A model generated the notes under the pieces. The model ran no database searches. It saw nothing but the letters and a program-made list of their open reading frames with translations, and had not been told where the DNA came from. A stretch of DNA of 64,000 nt from Rhodospirillales bacterium (GTDB taxonomy: Bacteria; Pseudomonadota; Gammaproteobacteria; Nevskiales; Nevskiaceae), in assembly GCA_903970615.1 (NCBI GenBank), contig CAJCJH010000085.1:1-64000 (forward strand). Direction: 5' to 3'. How positions within the stretch are numbered: position 1 is the stretch's first letter; every line of letters begins with the position of its first letter. A program made the translations under genes and the position numbers. This document shows, piece after piece, positions 36,173 through 46,305 of this stretch.

Positions 36173-37033
36173 TCACCGATTCATCGCATACAAAACCCGC
36201 TGGCCCTGCCAGTCGAAGACGATACCTTCGGGCACGATGCCGAAGATGTGTGGGCCTTGCGGTAGCGTGTCGCCTTCGTGGTAGCGCTTGCCGCCGATCA
36301 GCACGAAGCGCTGCGCGGGATCGTCGCTGTAGGCATGCACATCGACGGTGATCGCGGGGAAGCCAGCGCGGAAATCGTCCGGCATTTCGCGCAGGTTCTG
36401 GGTGGATGCAGCGGCGGGTGCGCTCTCGGGTCGTGAGGCTTCGGCGTTCGATGAGCCATTTGATGAGCCTGAAGGCTGGGCATCATCGGCAGGGTTGCGT
36501 GGAATTGCCGCGTAGTCATCGGTGATCGCGCTTGCGCGTGACTTCTCACGGATCTTACCGGCGCGTGTAGCGGCTGCAGATTCGGCATCTTCGCTTTCAT
36601 CGTTGATCGGTGCCGCGGGTGATGTCGGCGTGGGTTTGTCGTCGAGATCTTTCAGGCTGGAGATGCGGCCGTCGTCTTCGATCGCAGCAGTGCTGGGTTC
36701 CGGTGGTGGTTCGGCTTTGACTCGCGGAAGAGGTGCAGGCGCTTCAGGGCTGCTTGCCGGAACCGGCTTCGATGCAGTCGTGGCCGTGGCCGGTGCTGGC
36801 GCAGCCACAACGATCGCGGGCGGCAGTTCTGGCGCGCGTTCCCGATGCCCGCCGAAGATGAGATACGCCACGATCGCTGCTGCCAGCGCGAAGATCGCCG
36901 CCGGCATGATCCAGCGTTGCCAGGCTGGTATGGTTGCGGCGCTGCTCGCACCGGGCGTTTCGTCGAGCAGCGAATTGCTGCCTGCGCGGCGTTCGCGTTC
37001 GGCGCGTTTCAGCGCTTCCAGAATGTAGCTCAC
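36173..37033 (-). CDS. gspB: General secretion pathway protein B (GspB/ExeB)
   Basis: A 286-residue single-pass inner-membrane protein. The N-terminus MSYILEALKRAERERR is the hallmark of the family, then a transmembrane helix (WIMPAAIFALAAAIVAYLIF, about residues 40-60). A long Pro/Ala/Ser-rich periplasmic linker leads to the conserved C-terminal domain (FPAITVDVHAYSDDPAQRFVLI, in parts, and EGIVFDWQGQRVLY). GspAB helps assemble the type II secretin through peptidoglycan. Its ATG overlaps the end of gspA (ATGA). Confidence 0.87.
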   Translation of the reverse strand: MSYILEALKRAERERRAGSNSLLDETPGASSAATIPAWQRWIMPAAIFALAAAIVAYLIFGGHRERAPELPPAIVVAAPAPATATTASKPVPASSPEAPAPLPRVKAEPPPEPSTAAIEDDGRISSLKDLDDKPTPTSPAAPINDESEDAESAAATRAGKIREKSRASAITDDYAAIPRNPADDAQPSGSSNGSSNAEASRPESAPAAASTQNLREMPDDFRAGFPAITVDVHAYSDDPAQRFVLIGGKRYHEGDTLPQGPHIFGIVPEGIVFDWQGQRVLYAMNR

Positions 37034-38841
37034 GGTGGCGCGCCTGCGCTGCTGACGTTCAACGTGGGCGTGCCGACGGCGCGATCGAGATCGGCCAGCA
37101 CCATCAGCGTGCGCACGCCGACATTGCCGGTGCCGCTGAGTCCATGCGCAGTCTGGAACTGCCGGACTGCTTCGACCAGCCCGCGATCGAAGCGATCCGA
37201 CACTGGCGGCGTCAGCTTTTCACCCTTCACCTGCGCCAGCCGCATGCGCAGCCAGCGCACGTTTTCGTTGCGGGATTTCGGCGCGATCACGAGGTCGTCG
37301 ATTTCCTTGCGCCATAGCAGCAAATATTCGCCAGTCCACAGGTTGCCGATTTCCGCGATCGCCAGCCGCAGCGGACCATTCGCGGTTTCCAGCACCGCAT
37401 GGCCATCGTCGAGCCCGCGCAGCAGCACGTATTGCTCCGGCCCTTCGGGCCATTGCAGCGTGAGAATGGCGGGCCGATTGATCGCCGCCAGCGTGTCCCA
37501 GTCGCCTTCCGCGCGATAGCAGCCGAGCTTGCTGTCGGCCAGCGCGCGGCAGACGTTATCGCCGCGATTGATGTGCAGCGTGTCGTCCCACAAACCGATC
37601 AGCCGCGACATCACCACTGGCAGCGGTTGCGCGGTCGCACGCAAGGCGCCGATATCGACATCTACCGGCGTCTTCGAAAGCGCAGACGCGGCATTGATCG
37701 CAGCATTCGTCGCCACAGCTTTCGGCTCGGGCGTGGATGAGGTGCTGGCTGTGGGAATTGCTGATGAACTTCCAGCAGAAACGGCCGCAGCACTGGAAGC
37801 AGACGCCGCCGGACTCACGGATTCAGCAGACTCGGGCGATGCCGCATTCGGCACCGCTGCCGGCGCAGCTTTTGGTTTGTGGCCCAGCAGTTCCAGCGCA
37901 ATCACACCGGCCACGATCAAGGTCGCAATCGCCAATGCGGCTTCCACATAGAGCAAAGGCAGGCGGCGCGGCAGCAGTTGCAGCAGCTTGCGCTGCCAAC
38001 TCGGCTTGCGCTGTTCGAGGCCAAGCGCTTCGGCCGCAGCCTGGTTCACCACTTCCGGCGTCACCGTGCGCAGGCCGCGCGCGTAAGCGCCGAGCAGGGC
38101 GCGATCGCAGACGATGTTGATCAAGCGCGGAATGCCCTGCGTGTATTGATGCACACGGCGGATCGCCGCATGCGTGAACAGATCGGCCGCACCGTTGGCG
38201 ACGCGCAGACGATGCACGATATAGCGTTCCGTATCCGAAGCCAGCAGTGGTGAAAGGCGCGCACGCGCGGTGATGCGGCTCGCCAGCTGACGCAGGTCCG
38301 CACGTTCCAGCAGCGTCGCCAGTTCCGGCTGCCCCACCAGCATGATGCGCAGCAGCTTCTCTTTGTCCGTTTCCAGATTGGTTAGCAGCCGCACCTGTTC
38401 GAGCACGCCCGGCGCGAGGTTCTGCGCTTCATCGATGATCAGCACCGTGCGCCGGCCAGCGGCGTGGACCTTCAGCAGATGCTCATTCAGCGCATCCACC
38501 AGCGTCTTGATCGACGTCGCCGCCTGCGGGTACTTCACGCCGAGTTCATCGCAGATCGAGGCCACGAACTCCAGCTCGTTCTGCCGCGGGTTGTGGATCA
38601 TCGCCACATCCACATCGTCCAGCTTCTGCGCCAGCAGCGAACGCACGATAGTGGTTTTGCCGGTGCCCACTTCGCCAGTCAGCTGCACAAAGCCGCCGTA
38701 TTGCCCGGTGCCGTATAACAGGTGCCCGAGCGCCTCCTGATGGCCCGCGCTCAGGTACAGGAAACTCGGGTCCGGCGCGATCGAAAACGGCGGCTCGCGG
38801 AGATTGAAATAAGCGGCGTACAAGGCGTGCGTGGGCTTCAA
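37030..38841 (-). CDS. gspA: General secretion pathway ATPase GspA/ExeA
   Basis: A 603-residue AAA-type ATPase of the ExeA family. YFNLREPPFSIAPDPSFLYLS (in parts) starts the protein. The Walker A motif is TGEVGTGKTTIVRSLL and Walker B is TVLIIDEAQNL. A transmembrane helix around residue 300 (LALAIATLIVAGVIALELL-type stretch) separates it from a periplasmic part. That part holds a C39-like region and a C-terminal peptidoglycan-binding domain (GLVEAVRQFQTAHGLSGTG). With GspB it remodels peptidoglycan for the type II secretion channel. The other gsp genes are not in the window. Confidence 0.9.
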   Translation of the reverse strand: MKPTHALYAAYFNLREPPFSIAPDPSFLYLSAGHQEALGHLLYGTGQYGGFVQLTGEVGTGKTTIVRSLLAQKLDDVDVAMIHNPRQNELEFVASICDELGVKYPQAATSIKTLVDALNEHLLKVHAAGRRTVLIIDEAQNLAPGVLEQVRLLTNLETDKEKLLRIMLVGQPELATLLERADLRQLASRITARARLSPLLASDTERYIVHRLRVANGAADLFTHAAIRRVHQYTQGIPRLINIVCDRALLGAYARGLRTVTPEVVNQAAAEALGLEQRKPSWQRKLLQLLPRRLPLLYVEAALAIATLIVAGVIALELLGHKPKAAPAAVPNAASPESAESVSPAASASSAAAVSAGSSSAIPTASTSSTPEPKAVATNAAINAASALSKTPVDVDIGALRATAQPLPVVMSRLIGLWDDTLHINRGDNVCRALADSKLGCYRAEGDWDTLAAINRPAILTLQWPEGPEQYVLLRGLDDGHAVLETANGPLRLAIAEIGNLWTGEYLLLWRKEIDDLVIAPKSRNENVRWLRMRLAQVKGEKLTPPVSDRFDRGLVEAVRQFQTAHGLSGTGNVGVRTLMVLADLDRAVGTPTLNVSSAGAPP

Positions 38842-39916: not shown

Positions 39917-40471
39917 ATGATGATCGAGGACAATCGCGCTGAGCAGGGTTTGGCCGACGCCCCGGCAAACTCCTCGAAGCTCGTCACCGAACTTTATTCG
40001 GATCTGAAACGCCTCGCGCACCGCGAGCGCGTGCGGGTGGGTTCGCCGCCGACCTTGCAGACCACGGCGCTGATCCACGAGGCCTATCTGAAGCTGCATC
40101 GCGGCGGCGTCTGGAACGATCGCATGCATTTCATGCGTGCGGCAGCCACAGCCATGCGGCAGGTGCTGGTGGATGCGGCGCGTGCGCGGCTCACCTTGAA
40201 GCGCGGCGAGGGCGTGCATCCACTGGAACTGGAAGACGAGCACATCGGCAATCTGGCGCAGATGTCTGACGACATCATCGTCAACATCGACGATGCCTTG
40301 CAGAAACTCGGCGATCTCAGCCCGCGGCTGGCGCAAGTGGTGGAATGCCGCTTCTTCGCCGGCTACACCGAAGCGGAAACCGCGCAGGCGCTGGAAGTGA
40401 CCAGCCGCACGATCGAGCGCGACTGGGTCAAGGCCAAGGCCTGGCTGTATCAGGAACTCAGGCCCCTCTGA
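39917..40471 (+). CDS. ECF sigma factor, kinase-linked type (TIGR02999-like)
   Basis: A 184-residue extracytoplasmic-function sigma factor. Region 2 is seen in KLVTELYSDLKRLAHRERVR and TTALIHEAYLKLHRG and HFMRAAATAMRQVLVDAARAR (in parts). Region 4 is VVECRFFAGYTEAETAQALEV with TSRTIERDWVKAKAWLYQEL as the recognition helix. The subgroup with RQVLVDAARAR is often encoded near Ser/Thr kinases and lacks an anti-sigma factor; EcfK of Xanthomonas citri, activated by kinase PknS, is an example. A kinase gene lies 3 kb away. The frame extends upstream to 39713, but the ATG at 39917 has GGGAAAG nearby and gives the family length. Confidence 0.87.
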   Translation: MMIEDNRAEQGLADAPANSSKLVTELYSDLKRLAHRERVRVGSPPTLQTTALIHEAYLKLHRGGVWNDRMHFMRAAATAMRQVLVDAARARLTLKRGEGVHPLELEDEHIGNLAQMSDDIIVNIDDALQKLGDLSPRLAQVVECRFFAGYTEAETAQALEVTSRTIERDWVKAKAWLYQELRPL

Positions 40472-41036
40472 GCATCGCTGGCGCGGGCGGCAGGAAACCG
40501 GTGTCGAGCCAGTAGCGGCCCGGATCATTCGCATCTATCAGTACACCGACCGTCTGCCGCTGTGCCAGCGATGCTTGAGGATCGATCAGCATCGGATCGC
40601 TGACGAAGCGCCATTGCTTGCCGTCACGCGGATTACGCCAGCAGGCCACGATCACATACGGCCGCGCACTCGGCAGATTGCTGGTAGTGCCGATCATGGT
40701 CCGCTCCACCGTCAAACTACCGGCGACGATGCGAACGCCGTGCTCGGCGAGCCAGCGACGATCGGTCAACTGGCGGAATCCGCGAATCATCGTGAATGTG
40801 CCGATGCCAGCTAACAGCAGGCCAAGCGCACCGAAAATCGATGCGGGCAGCCAGTAAGCGAAGGTGGCTGAATCACCAGCAAAAGCTGGCATCTGCATCG
40901 AATGAGCTGGCGCTTCGAGCGTATGACGCGCGCGCTGAATGGCATTTGAAGCAACGCCGCCGAAGGCCGCGCCGAAGACGATTATCAGCATGCCGGTGAT
41001 CAGCGAGACGCGCGCCGCGAAAGTTGGTGGCTTCAT
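40458..41036 (-). CDS. DUF3592-like membrane protein
   Basis: A 192-residue protein with two predicted membrane helices (VSLITGMLIIVFGAAFGGVA near residue 10-30 and FAYWLPASIFGALGLLLAGIGTF, in parts, near residue 65-85). A soluble segment follows with a beta-rich pattern (GVRIVAGSLTVERT, YVIVACWRNPRDGKQWRFVSD, in parts, VGVLIDANDPGRYWLD). The order of helices, beta strands and final DP-x-Y motif recalls DUF3592, found near the membrane of many bacteria; the link is tentative. The start at 41036 lies 10 bases after the upstream secreted-protein gene, so it is in that operon. Its 3' end overlaps the end of the sigma gene by 14 bases. Confidence 0.65.
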   Translation of the reverse strand: MKPPTFAARVSLITGMLIIVFGAAFGGVASNAIQRARHTLEAPAHSMQMPAFAGDSATFAYWLPASIFGALGLLLAGIGTFTMIRGFRQLTDRRWLAEHGVRIVAGSLTVERTMIGTTSNLPSARPYVIVACWRNPRDGKQWRFVSDPMLIDPQASLAQRQTVGVLIDANDPGRYWLDTGFLPPAPAMLRGA

Positions 41037-41046
41037 GGCCTGATTG

Positions 41047-41598
41047 TTAGGGATACGGTGCCGCGCAGGCGGCGACATAGCCGGCGGAACGCAGCGCCTC
41101 GCAAGCGAGTTGTGCCGAGGCTGGACACGCGGCCGAAGGCAAGCTTTGCGACGACGGCCTTAGGTCCATCTGGCACTGCAAAGTTTGCAGCAGGCTTGCC
41201 GCACAGCGTTGCCCGTACTGCTGCTTTGCTTTGCCGGCTTCCGGATAAAACCACGCCACGCAGGGTTCGGCTTGCACGGCGGCGGCGAAGGCCGGGCTGG
41301 CGATCAACGCCGCAGCATCGTTGTGCGACCAATCCACTTTCGATGACGCTTCGTCGATCGCGCAATTCAGACGCGCATCGCGTGCCTGCATCTGTGAACA
41401 GAGGAAAAATGCACGATCGCTGCCGCACTGAAGCTCCTCGTCCGCTGCGGAGGAAATTTCCGGTACGGGCTCGCAGCCGATCATCTTTAGCACCTTCAGC
41501 TGCGTGGCCAGCGAGGTGTTTTGCGGAATCACTGCGCCTTGTGCAGTCATCGTCAATGCAAGCAACGGCAGCGTCACCAGCCAAATGTTTATCGGCAT
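41047..41598 (-). CDS. Secreted cysteine-rich protein of unknown family (paralogue A)
   Basis: A 183-residue protein with an N-terminal signal peptide (hydrophobic WLVTLPLLALTMTAQGA, cut near residue 22). Ten cysteines lie at 42, 58, 67, 79, 113, 132, 142, 158, 166 and 178. I recognise no named family. The spacing at 42-58-67-79 and at 132-142-158-166-178 reproduces, with one one-residue difference, the protein encoded at 42613-43515, so the two are paralogues. Residues around the cysteines also match (VLKMIGC against VLRIYGC). It is likely periplasmic or extracellular and disulfide-bonded. It forms a minus-strand operon with the genes at 41628 and 40458. Confidence 0.72.
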   Translation of the reverse strand: MPINIWLVTLPLLALTMTAQGAVIPQNTSLATQLKVLKMIGCEPVPEISSAADEELQCGSDRAFFLCSQMQARDARLNCAIDEASSKVDWSHNDAAALIASPAFAAAVQAEPCVAWFYPEAGKAKQQYGQRCAASLLQTLQCQMDLRPSSQSLPSAACPASAQLACEALRSAGYVAACAAPYP

Positions 41599-41627
41599 GT
41601 GCTACTCGCATTGATCCAATCGAACGC

Positions 41628-42368
41628 CTAATTCACCGGCGTCAACTGACAGCCGTTGTACCACCAGTTGCCGTTGCCTTTGAGCACAACGGTCGCCGAG
41701 GACTGCTTCGGGGTCGGCTGCAGGATCCCGGCAACGCTTACTGGTGCGGAGTTCCCCGGCAGCGGTGTTTGCAATGTACCCAGAAGCGGCAGGTCGCTGG
41801 GCTGATTTCCGTAGGGTGTGCCGGCGTGTACTTCTGCGGTGACAACGACGGGAGTGCCCGCGTCGGTCACCGAGCAGTCGAGAATCACTGCATGCGGCAT
41901 CGGTATGTTGGGGTTGTTGGCGTTGAAGTACAACTCCAGTTCGACATACGAAAACGGCTCACCCTTCAGCATCGCCGAGTTATGACTGTTGCCGCCGTTG
42001 CCGGTCTGTAGGATGTCAGCCGCCGTCGTAAACACCGTGACGATCGGTGAGTTGAGCGCATCACCGAAGCCGATCTGCAAGGGCGGCGCGCCTGCATTGC
42101 CTGGCAGATTGACCGACGCCATCAAGGCCTGCTTGGCCGGAGGCGACAGGAATGGCGGCAGCTTCAAGGCCGGCTTCTGCACCATCATGGGACCCTTTGC
42201 GTGCGCCAGCGGCGTCTGCACCGGGCCATCAAACGCGAATACCGGCGCGTGCTGCGGCTGCGGCGCGGACATTGTTCGTGGCTGAGCAGCGGCAAGACTG
42301 CTGGCGAGCGCAGGCAGTAGCAGGGTGATGGTTGCAAGCTGGCTTGCGCATCTGCGAAATCGGGTCAT
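41628..42368 (-). CDS. Secreted protein of unknown function
   Basis: A 246-residue exported protein. The ATG at 42368 has GGAG at good spacing; the frame runs on to 42404 without a better start. The signal peptide is basic then hydrophobic (ITLLLPALASSLAAAQ), ending near residue 28. A Pro/Gln/Ala-rich segment follows, then a probable beta-rich domain (GDALNSPIVTVFTTAADILQ, SYVELELYFNANN, PVVVTAEVHAGTPYG, SATVVLKGNGNWWYNGCQ, each in parts). Only two cysteines are in the mature part. It looks like a carbohydrate- or surface-associated beta-sandwich, but this is a guess. It is first in the minus-strand operon, 29 bases before the cysteine-rich gene. Confidence 0.65.
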   Translation of the reverse strand: MTRFRRCASQLATITLLLPALASSLAAAQPRTMSAPQPQHAPVFAFDGPVQTPLAHAKGPMMVQKPALKLPPFLSPPAKQALMASVNLPGNAGAPPLQIGFGDALNSPIVTVFTTAADILQTGNGGNSHNSAMLKGEPFSYVELELYFNANNPNIPMPHAVILDCSVTDAGTPVVVTAEVHAGTPYGNQPSDLPLLGTLQTPLPGNSAPVSVAGILQPTPKQSSATVVLKGNGNWWYNGCQLTPVN

Positions 42369-42382
42369 GTTCGTCTCCGTGG

Positions 42383-42405
42383 AATGCCGGCGCAATGCCG
42401 GCATT
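42383..42405. promoter_or_regulatory. Palindrome in the divergent promoter region
   Basis: AATGCCGGC is repeated directly, the second copy forming the perfect 12-bp palindrome AATGCCGGCATT at 42394-42405. It lies in the 244-base region between the divergent secreted-protein genes, just upstream of the ribosome-binding site of the minus-strand gene. It may be an operator; there is no direct proof. Confidence 0.35.
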
Positions 42406-42612
42406 ACTCACAAGAACGGCAAAGCCAGGCGAGTTCCGACATGCGGCTTCCGCTTACGGGTGCGAAATGCTGATGTCGGCTTTTACGGCGGCTTCGCGTT
42501 TATCCAGATATCGGGCAGCGATCGGGAACTGGCGCGAAAGCTCAGCAAGCCTTTATTGAGGCCGCGCCGCGTTTCGATCTGACGTTATTTGCGACCTCAC
42601 CGGAGTCTTGCA

Positions 42613-43515
42613 GTGAACACATCCAAGTCGTTGGCCAATCAATCATCGATCCATAACACCGTGCAGACATCGCGTGGCTGGCAGCGAACAAGGCTTTTTG
42701 CGCTGACGGCGGCGATAGCGCTAACGTGTGCATTCGCGTCGATGTCGAATCCCGCGCATGCGCAAAATCAGCCGCCAGCATCGATTGGCCCGATGCGTTC
42801 GCAAGCTGCGCAAACGCCAGCGCCTTCGCCGGCGATGACCCCGCGTTATGAAACCGCACAACCGAATCAGCCGCTGCAGATGAATCGAGGTCCGCTGATG
42901 CAGATGCAAACCAGGCATCTTCCAGCCGGTGCCTACATCGTGAGTTTCAGCGACGAAGTGTTGAGGATTTACGGCTGTACGCGCACAGCGCTCGCCGCTA
43001 ATGACGCGACTTCGACATGGGCCTGCCCTTACTGGCGCGGCATGTTCGTCTGCGAGGAATTGCGTTTGCAGGGAGATGTTCATCAATGCCAGAAATTGCC
43101 GATATCGGCCGCATCGCTGCCGCCCGCTCAGGCGGCGAACTCGAATACGGGCAACGATCCCTGCACGCAAGATCCGAAATCGCTCGCTTGCCAGATGGAG
43201 CAGGACTCAGCAATGGCGGGCGCGCTGAGCAACGCGCTGGGCGACTTCGGCCAGCAGATATCGGACGCGGCGGATGCGGCCTGCGTAATCGGCAACGCTT
43301 CGCCAGACATGCTGCCGACCAACCCTGAAAGCAGCGTCAAGCCACCCGTGGCGCAACGTCGTGTTTGCGCCGGAGCCGTGCTGACCGATCTGCACTGCAA
43401 GGTCGAGAGCTTGTCCGCTGATCCGAAGTCGCCCGATCTCGCCACCTGCCTGCAGCCTGGCAGCGCAATGTGCGCGGCATTCCATGTTCCGGGACTCATC
43501 AATAAATGTGAGTGA
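42613..43515 (+). CDS. Secreted cysteine-rich protein of unknown family (paralogue B)
   Basis: A 300-residue exported protein. The GTG at 42613 has GGAG eight bases upstream; the frame reaches back to a TTG at 42589. The signal peptide contains LFALTAAIALTCAFASMS and ends at AHA-Q50. A disordered Pro/Gln/Met-rich stretch runs to about residue 100. The cysteine-rich domain then has Cys at 122, 138, 147, 159, 184, 193, 224, 252, 262, 279, 287 and 299. The 122-159 and 252-299 groups match the spacing of the protein at 41047-41598. The pair 184/193 is extra. Probably periplasmic or secreted; function unknown. Confidence 0.72.
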   Translation: MNTSKSLANQSSIHNTVQTSRGWQRTRLFALTAAIALTCAFASMSNPAHAQNQPPASIGPMRSQAAQTPAPSPAMTPRYETAQPNQPLQMNRGPLMQMQTRHLPAGAYIVSFSDEVLRIYGCTRTALAANDATSTWACPYWRGMFVCEELRLQGDVHQCQKLPISAASLPPAQAANSNTGNDPCTQDPKSLACQMEQDSAMAGALSNALGDFGQQISDAADAACVIGNASPDMLPTNPESSVKPPVAQRRVCAGAVLTDLHCKVESLSADPKSPDLATCLQPGSAMCAAFHVPGLINKCE

Positions 43516-43609: not shown

Positions 43610-46057
<2,448 letters not shown>

Positions 46058-46305
46058 TTTTTTGCGTCCCTAATGTTTATTTGTTTCTTTGGCGTCTCTC
46101 TGGCGCATTCAACATCGCATCATCCGGCTAGGCTAACCCGGATCAACAAGCGGGCGTTCTGCTCGATAATTTCAGGTGCGAAATCCGCCGCTCATTCATC
46201 AGCAAATAAAACGTCGAAGCGGCCGGATCACCGACATCCGCCTTGAATCTCGTTCGAATATTCCGGGTCGTTTGCGATTGGAGACGAATACGTTAGTCTT
46301 TGCGA

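Follow-up and report, generated by a model that had tools for sequence, protein, structure and literature searches.

The window, which is the whole stretch of DNA analysed here (64,000 nucleotides), encodes two secreted, cysteine-rich proteins, A and B, on opposite strands. Do A and B descend from one ancestor, and what do they serve? In the window, an ECF sigma factor gene (+) is followed by D, A and C (all −), B (+) and a gene for a Hanks-type kinase with tetratricopeptide repeats (TPRs) (−). The features on which the argument rests are listed in Table 1.

Table 1. Features of the sigma factor–kinase locus (window coordinates)
Feature	Position	Strand	Remarks
ECF sigma factor, ECF43 signature	39917..40471	+	QTTA in region 2.2; start set at MMIEDN; ORF open from 39713
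Protein D	40458..41078	-	Small membrane protein, no family match; ORF overlaps end of A
Protein A	41047..41598	-	183 aa with signal peptide; 10 Cys, of which 113 and 132 lie outside the two modules
Module 2 of A	41056..41193	-	Cys 142-158-166-178
Module 1 of A	41350..41493	-	Cys 42-58-67-79
Protein C	41628..42368	-	Secreted, Pro/Gln/Met-rich N-terminus, no family; start set at MTRFRR (longer ORF reaches 42404)
TGTCGG-N17-CGTT before C-A-D	42415..42441	-	
TGTCGG-N17-CGTT before B	42474..42500	+	
Protein B	42613..43515	+	300 aa, 13 Cys, GTG start behind GGAG, signal peptide, two modules
Module 1 of B	42958..43101	+	Cys 122-138-147-159
Module 2 of B	43378..43512	+	Cys 262-279-287-299
Hanks-type Ser/Thr kinase	43610..46057	-	~83-residue N-terminal extension, kinase domain, one TM (~381-399), C-terminal TPR region
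TGTCGG-N17-CGTT before kinase gene	46210..46236	-	

Relationship of proteins A and B

Both reading frames lie exactly where a preliminary description of this DNA had placed them, on the strands it gave, and its cysteine positions agree with our recount (42-58-67-79-113-132-142-158-166-178 in A; 39-122-138-147-159-184-193-224-252-262-279-287-299 in B). The signal peptides it had assigned to both proteins are plausible, as judged by eye (...MTAQG-AV in A and ...NPAHA-QN in B). The first cysteine block has exactly the same steps in A and B (16-9-12), and the second block shares three of four steps (10-16-8-12 in A, 10-17-8-12 in B), which brings the identical steps to six of the seven compared, rather than the seven of eight counted before. 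With cysteines placed at random, six exact step matches were never attained in 20,000 trials, and seven matches within ±1 had p = 5e-5. The similar flanking residues (VLKMIGC and VLRIYGC; RCAASL and VCAGAV) had been read correctly; the Pro/Gln/Met-rich extension and extra cysteine pair attributed to one copy correspond to residues 51-105 and C184/C193 of B. Cys 113 of A has a plausible counterpart in Cys 224 of B, so that all ten cysteines of A have possible equivalents in B. The cysteines of B beyond the set of A are the extra pair and one inside the signal peptide.

The similarity of A and B extends beyond cysteine placement. Specifically, profiles built from A and its one ortholog scored higher against the first half of B than against all 961 shuffles and all 970 shuffles in which the cysteines were kept fixed; against the second half, they outscored all 999 shuffles, and only 1 of 1000 cysteine-fixed shuffles reached the real score. 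Of the pairwise and profile alignments that the preliminary description had proposed as a check, these shuffle tests and a local BLASTP match (E = 1e-4 without composition correction) argue for kinship; the score of a direct profile-profile comparison is modest (P = 0.008, with a probability of just 4.9%). AlphaFold models of A and B, built from one or two sequences, had pLDDT values of 48 and 41 and were too poor for use; a fold search returned noise only, with no fold match for A.

The modest BLAST and profile-profile scores, together with an overall identity of about 26%, would also fit two unrelated proteins whose cysteine spacing converged by chance or under a common disulfide constraint. 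We regard such convergence as very improbable, because the cysteine-fixed shuffles fall short of the observed similarity in both halves of B, and because A and B occupy the same locus with the same promoter-like motif. The cysteine spacing and the profile-to-shuffle tests support the conclusion that A and B are real but distant paralogs, and uphold their earlier reading as divergent copies of an unnamed secreted cysteine-rich domain. Their cysteines presumably pair in disulfides.

A point overlooked in the preliminary description is that A and B each probably contain two copies of a four-cysteine module, C-x15/16-C-x7/8-C-x11-C. A three-step internal repeat this good arises in about 0.5% of random cysteine placements for each protein. 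When a profile of the second modules was compared with module 1 of B, none of 984 plain shuffles reached the real score and 2 of 995 did with cysteines fixed, and the pairs A2-B1 and B1-B2 gave Z values of 3.6-3.8 with cysteines fixed; module 1 of A compared with module 2 of A had no significance on its own. Each protein is probably a tandem repeat of one four-cysteine module, a conclusion that is supported, but less strongly than the paralogy.

Orphan secreted proteins are common, and A and B have a narrow distribution. A has one ortholog, with 53-55% identity and all ten cysteines kept, in a metagenome-assembled genome (G017; record CAIJRD010000010, 'uncultured Sinobacteraceae', a name now under Nevskiaceae at NCBI), and B has no match among 60 relatives, G017 included. 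The profiles found nothing more in 58 genomes of the family or 369 genomes of the class, and the phages, plasmids and viral contigs searched gave nothing; a match in one genome (G376, 0.0005) was dismissed as chance, the protein being by sequence an IclR-type regulator. Among the genomes searched, the A/B family is known from two genomes of one genus only, and the evidence from conservation is therefore thin. Consistent with the earlier statement that no named family was recognised, A, B, C and D have no significant match in Pfam, NCBIfam or PHROGs, and a PDB sequence search with A and the module profiles gave no match.

The enclosing sigma factor–kinase pair

The setting of A and B, which had also been overlooked, is an ECF43-type sigma factor paired with a convergently encoded, PknS-like Hanks kinase. 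The sigma factor carries TLQTTALIHEAY, a QTTA-type motif instead of the acidic region 2.2 motif, and QTTA is present in 22 of the 33 related sigma genes scanned. QTTA is the ECF43 consensus, and its threonine is phosphorylated by the neighbouring Hanks kinase in characterised systems (PMC13147305, PMC8999054); by analogy, the sigma factor of the window may be phosphorylated in the same way. The kinase matches PF00069 at 3.9e-44, with its kinase domain at residues 84-284, a hydrophobic segment at 381-399 and TPR matches at 597-705. This layout, with the topology predicted from sequence, is that of the PknS receptor type, in which the TPRs lie in the periplasmic part (PMC13147305). Most relatives that have the sigma factor retain the pair.

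C lies upstream of A with a gap of 29 bp, and C-A-D is likely one operon. The C-A-D gene set is also present in G017, where the locus has the same order minus B and about 110 bp separate the kinase stop codon from the start of C; B, divergent from C-A-D, is found in the window genome only. Across 33 related sigma loci, the sigma factor and kinase genes usually converge, often as immediate neighbours, and the intervening gap, where present, can hold other secreted genes. In particular, a member of the same genus (G014; L070, 7741-9877) encodes in this position a trypsin-like protein and a lipoprotein with a legume-lectin domain, another genome (G056) has two signal-bearing proteins, and a third (G043; L093, 964-3729) has a 921-residue Calx-beta protein with a weak outer-membrane barrel match. 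The absence of B from the G017 locus and the variety of gap genes among relatives suggest that B either entered the locus later or has disappeared from G017.

Between the window genome (G000) and G017, the secreted proteins are 53-55% (A), 38-42% (C) and 46% (a giant cysteine-rich protein described below) identical, against 81% for the sigma factor, 68% for the kinase and 79% for a csgG-like gene product. The faster divergence of the secreted genes fits exposed proteins.

Several further features of the locus were observed. B (42763-42927, 45%) and C (42114-42287, 38%) both have a Pro/Gln/Met-rich mature N-terminus, which is rare among the reading frames of the window; kinship of the two stretches was rejected, since they are alike in composition only (alignment p = 0.13). 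A hairpin, GCCGGC-ATTGC-GCCGGC (42381-42404; folding z −3.6), lies just 5′ of the ribosome-binding site of C, and G017 has at this position a hairpin whose sequence differs but whose loop is similar (folding z −2.5). The type II secretion assembly genes gspB (PF16537) and gspA (AAA, C39-like, peptidoglycan binding) are located near the locus, at 36173-38841.

A shared promoter-like motif and a distant csgG operon

In a motif search of seven upstream regions, the best shared bipartite motif, TGTCGG-N17-CGTT, lies before the kinase gene and C in both genomes and before B in the window genome. It is thus present in five of seven regions, compared with at most three of seven in 300 shuffles. Exact sites number 10 in 3.17 Mb, and three of them lie, correctly oriented, at gene starts of this locus. 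The genome-wide count (10) does not exceed that of a reversed control (9), so the argument depends on where the sites lie and not on how many there are. A further site lies upstream of csgG in both genomes, although csgG is on another contig (C108) in G000 and next to the sigma gene in G017. The csgG site was not used for motif discovery and hence provides an independent check. Three of the four motif placements (kinase, C and csgG) recur in G017.

No copy of the motif was seen upstream of the sigma gene in the gene's own direction, and in most other ECF43 loci of the family the exact motif is not apparent. Exact sites within large reading frames of both genomes were treated as chance, and an intergenic site on contig C52 was set aside, with no convincing gene close downstream. 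From the placement of the sites, we infer that TGTCGG-N17-CGTT is a candidate promoter recognised by the sigma factor of the window; that the motif is common to the transcription units of both A and B had been overlooked.

The csgG-like protein scores 94 bits against PF03783 (Pfam cut-off, 20.8), and a lipobox (LAAC / LLGC) is seen in its sequence. The operon (contig C108; L142, L145) also encodes a Gly/Ser/Tyr-rich secreted protein, a DUF6252-like protein and the giant cysteine-rich protein, which has 1173 residues and 26 cysteines in the window genome and 1210 residues and 28 cysteines in G017, and is present in these two only among 373 genomes. A further copy of the giant protein's C-terminal domain is encoded by a small, separate gene for a secreted protein.

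Three consecutive four-cysteine units of the giant protein look alike, and two of them are mutually related (Z about 4). In a group test of the giant protein against the A/B module, 3 of 1000 trials reached the observed score with chosen windows, but control windows scored nearly as high, reaching Z 2, and single profiles were weak. The giant protein was not found by the A/B profile search, and a comparison with protein C gave nothing. Strong alignment scores between the giant protein and A/B were discarded as circular, because modules of the giant protein were in that alignment. Kinship of the giant protein to the A/B module is possible, and we do not claim it.

Proposed role and comparison with known systems

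The paralogy, the locus architecture, the ECF43 signature and the shared motif were established by computation. As A and B apparently stand under the adjacent kinase-controlled sigma factor, they are likely the output of one signalling system, acting at the cell surface or in the periplasm. We thus favour, with a probability of about 0.62, the reading that A and B are paralogous two-module secreted proteins and output genes of the sigma factor–kinase pair that encloses them. The periplasmic TPR part would let the membrane kinase sense an envelope signal, whereupon the kinase would phosphorylate the QTTA threonine of the ECF43 sigma factor, and the sigma factor would then transcribe TGTCGG-N17-CGTT promoters, namely those of the kinase itself, C-A-D, B and the distant csgG operon. 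A and B would be exported through their signal peptides and oxidised in the periplasm to disulfide-stapled folds, where they may act as structural or binding proteins, in the periplasm or at the cell surface, possibly delivered via the CsgG-type lipoprotein. B may have arisen by duplication of an A-type gene, with the Pro/Gln/Met-rich linker acquired or kept, and would now lie divergently beside the operon.

A, B, C and D could instead belong to the input side, as periplasmic ligands or modulators that bind the kinase TPRs and tune its activity, like co-sensors of receptor kinases. The genes sit between the sigma factor and the kinase, a position that D, A and C retain in G017 as well, TPRs are protein-binding repeats and are periplasmic in PknS (PMC13147305), and positive feedback of the sigma factor on a partner of its own sensor would produce the same promoter pattern. 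However, many relatives keep the sigma factor–kinase pair without such genes, which indicates that the pair can work alone. The motif also precedes the distant csgG operon of secreted proteins, which an output role fits better, and we judge a role on the input side unlikely.

Antagonists are often found among small secreted proteins that are rich in disulfides and diverge fast, and A and B could be toxins or inhibitors that act on competing or predatory organisms, in which case C or D would be accessory or immunity proteins. The trypsin-like protease and legume-lectin-domain protein in the same slot of G014 would suit such a role, as would the ECF43 system EcfK/PknS of Xanthomonas citri, which controls a predation-resistance type VI secretion system (T6SS) in defence against amoebae (PMC13147305). 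However, no toxin or other functional family was matched, and nothing marks D as an immunity protein. T6SS as an output was rejected as well, because neither G000 nor G017 has a PF05943 sheath gene in a search whose positive control worked. Antagonism is, in our estimate, less likely still than a role on the input side.

Returning to the output reading, a bolder version would have the phosphorylation-activated ECF43 sigma factor run a whole surface system, in which A, B, C and the giant protein, all sharing one disulfide module, depend on the CsgG-type lipoprotein for export or anchoring. We consider this version doubtful; if true, the CsgG-linked system would be a surface structure of an undescribed kind under direct sigma factor–kinase control. 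The anonymous orphan pair A and B gains a regulatory setting, and the space between the conserved sigma factor gene and that of its kinase emerges as a fast-evolving gene slot.

CsgG and HfaB are outer-membrane secretion lipoproteins of curli and of the Caulobacter holdfast anchor. The csgG-like gene heads an operon of secreted proteins, much as HfaB is accompanied by HfaA and HfaD (PMC6707917). Its product misses the NCBIfam equivalog cut-offs (24.4 of 505 bits for CsgG and 20.5 of 300 bits for HfaB), and its neighbours match no curli or holdfast families. The regulatory pair is closely reminiscent of PknS-EcfK of X. citri and PknT-EcfP of Vibrio parahaemolyticus, in which a QTTA-type sigma factor likewise neighbours a Hanks kinase (PMC13147305, PMC8999054), and the kinase of the window, like PknS, has an N-terminal extension, one transmembrane segment and a C-terminal TPR region (PMC13147305). 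The ECF43 outputs described in these papers are type VI secretion in Xanthomonas and polymyxin resistance in Vibrio (PMC13147305, PMC8999054). In contrast, the genes linked to the pair here encode orphan cysteine-rich secreted proteins and the csgG operon, and the sequence by itself points to a promoter motif and to secreted proteins that would form a small regulon.
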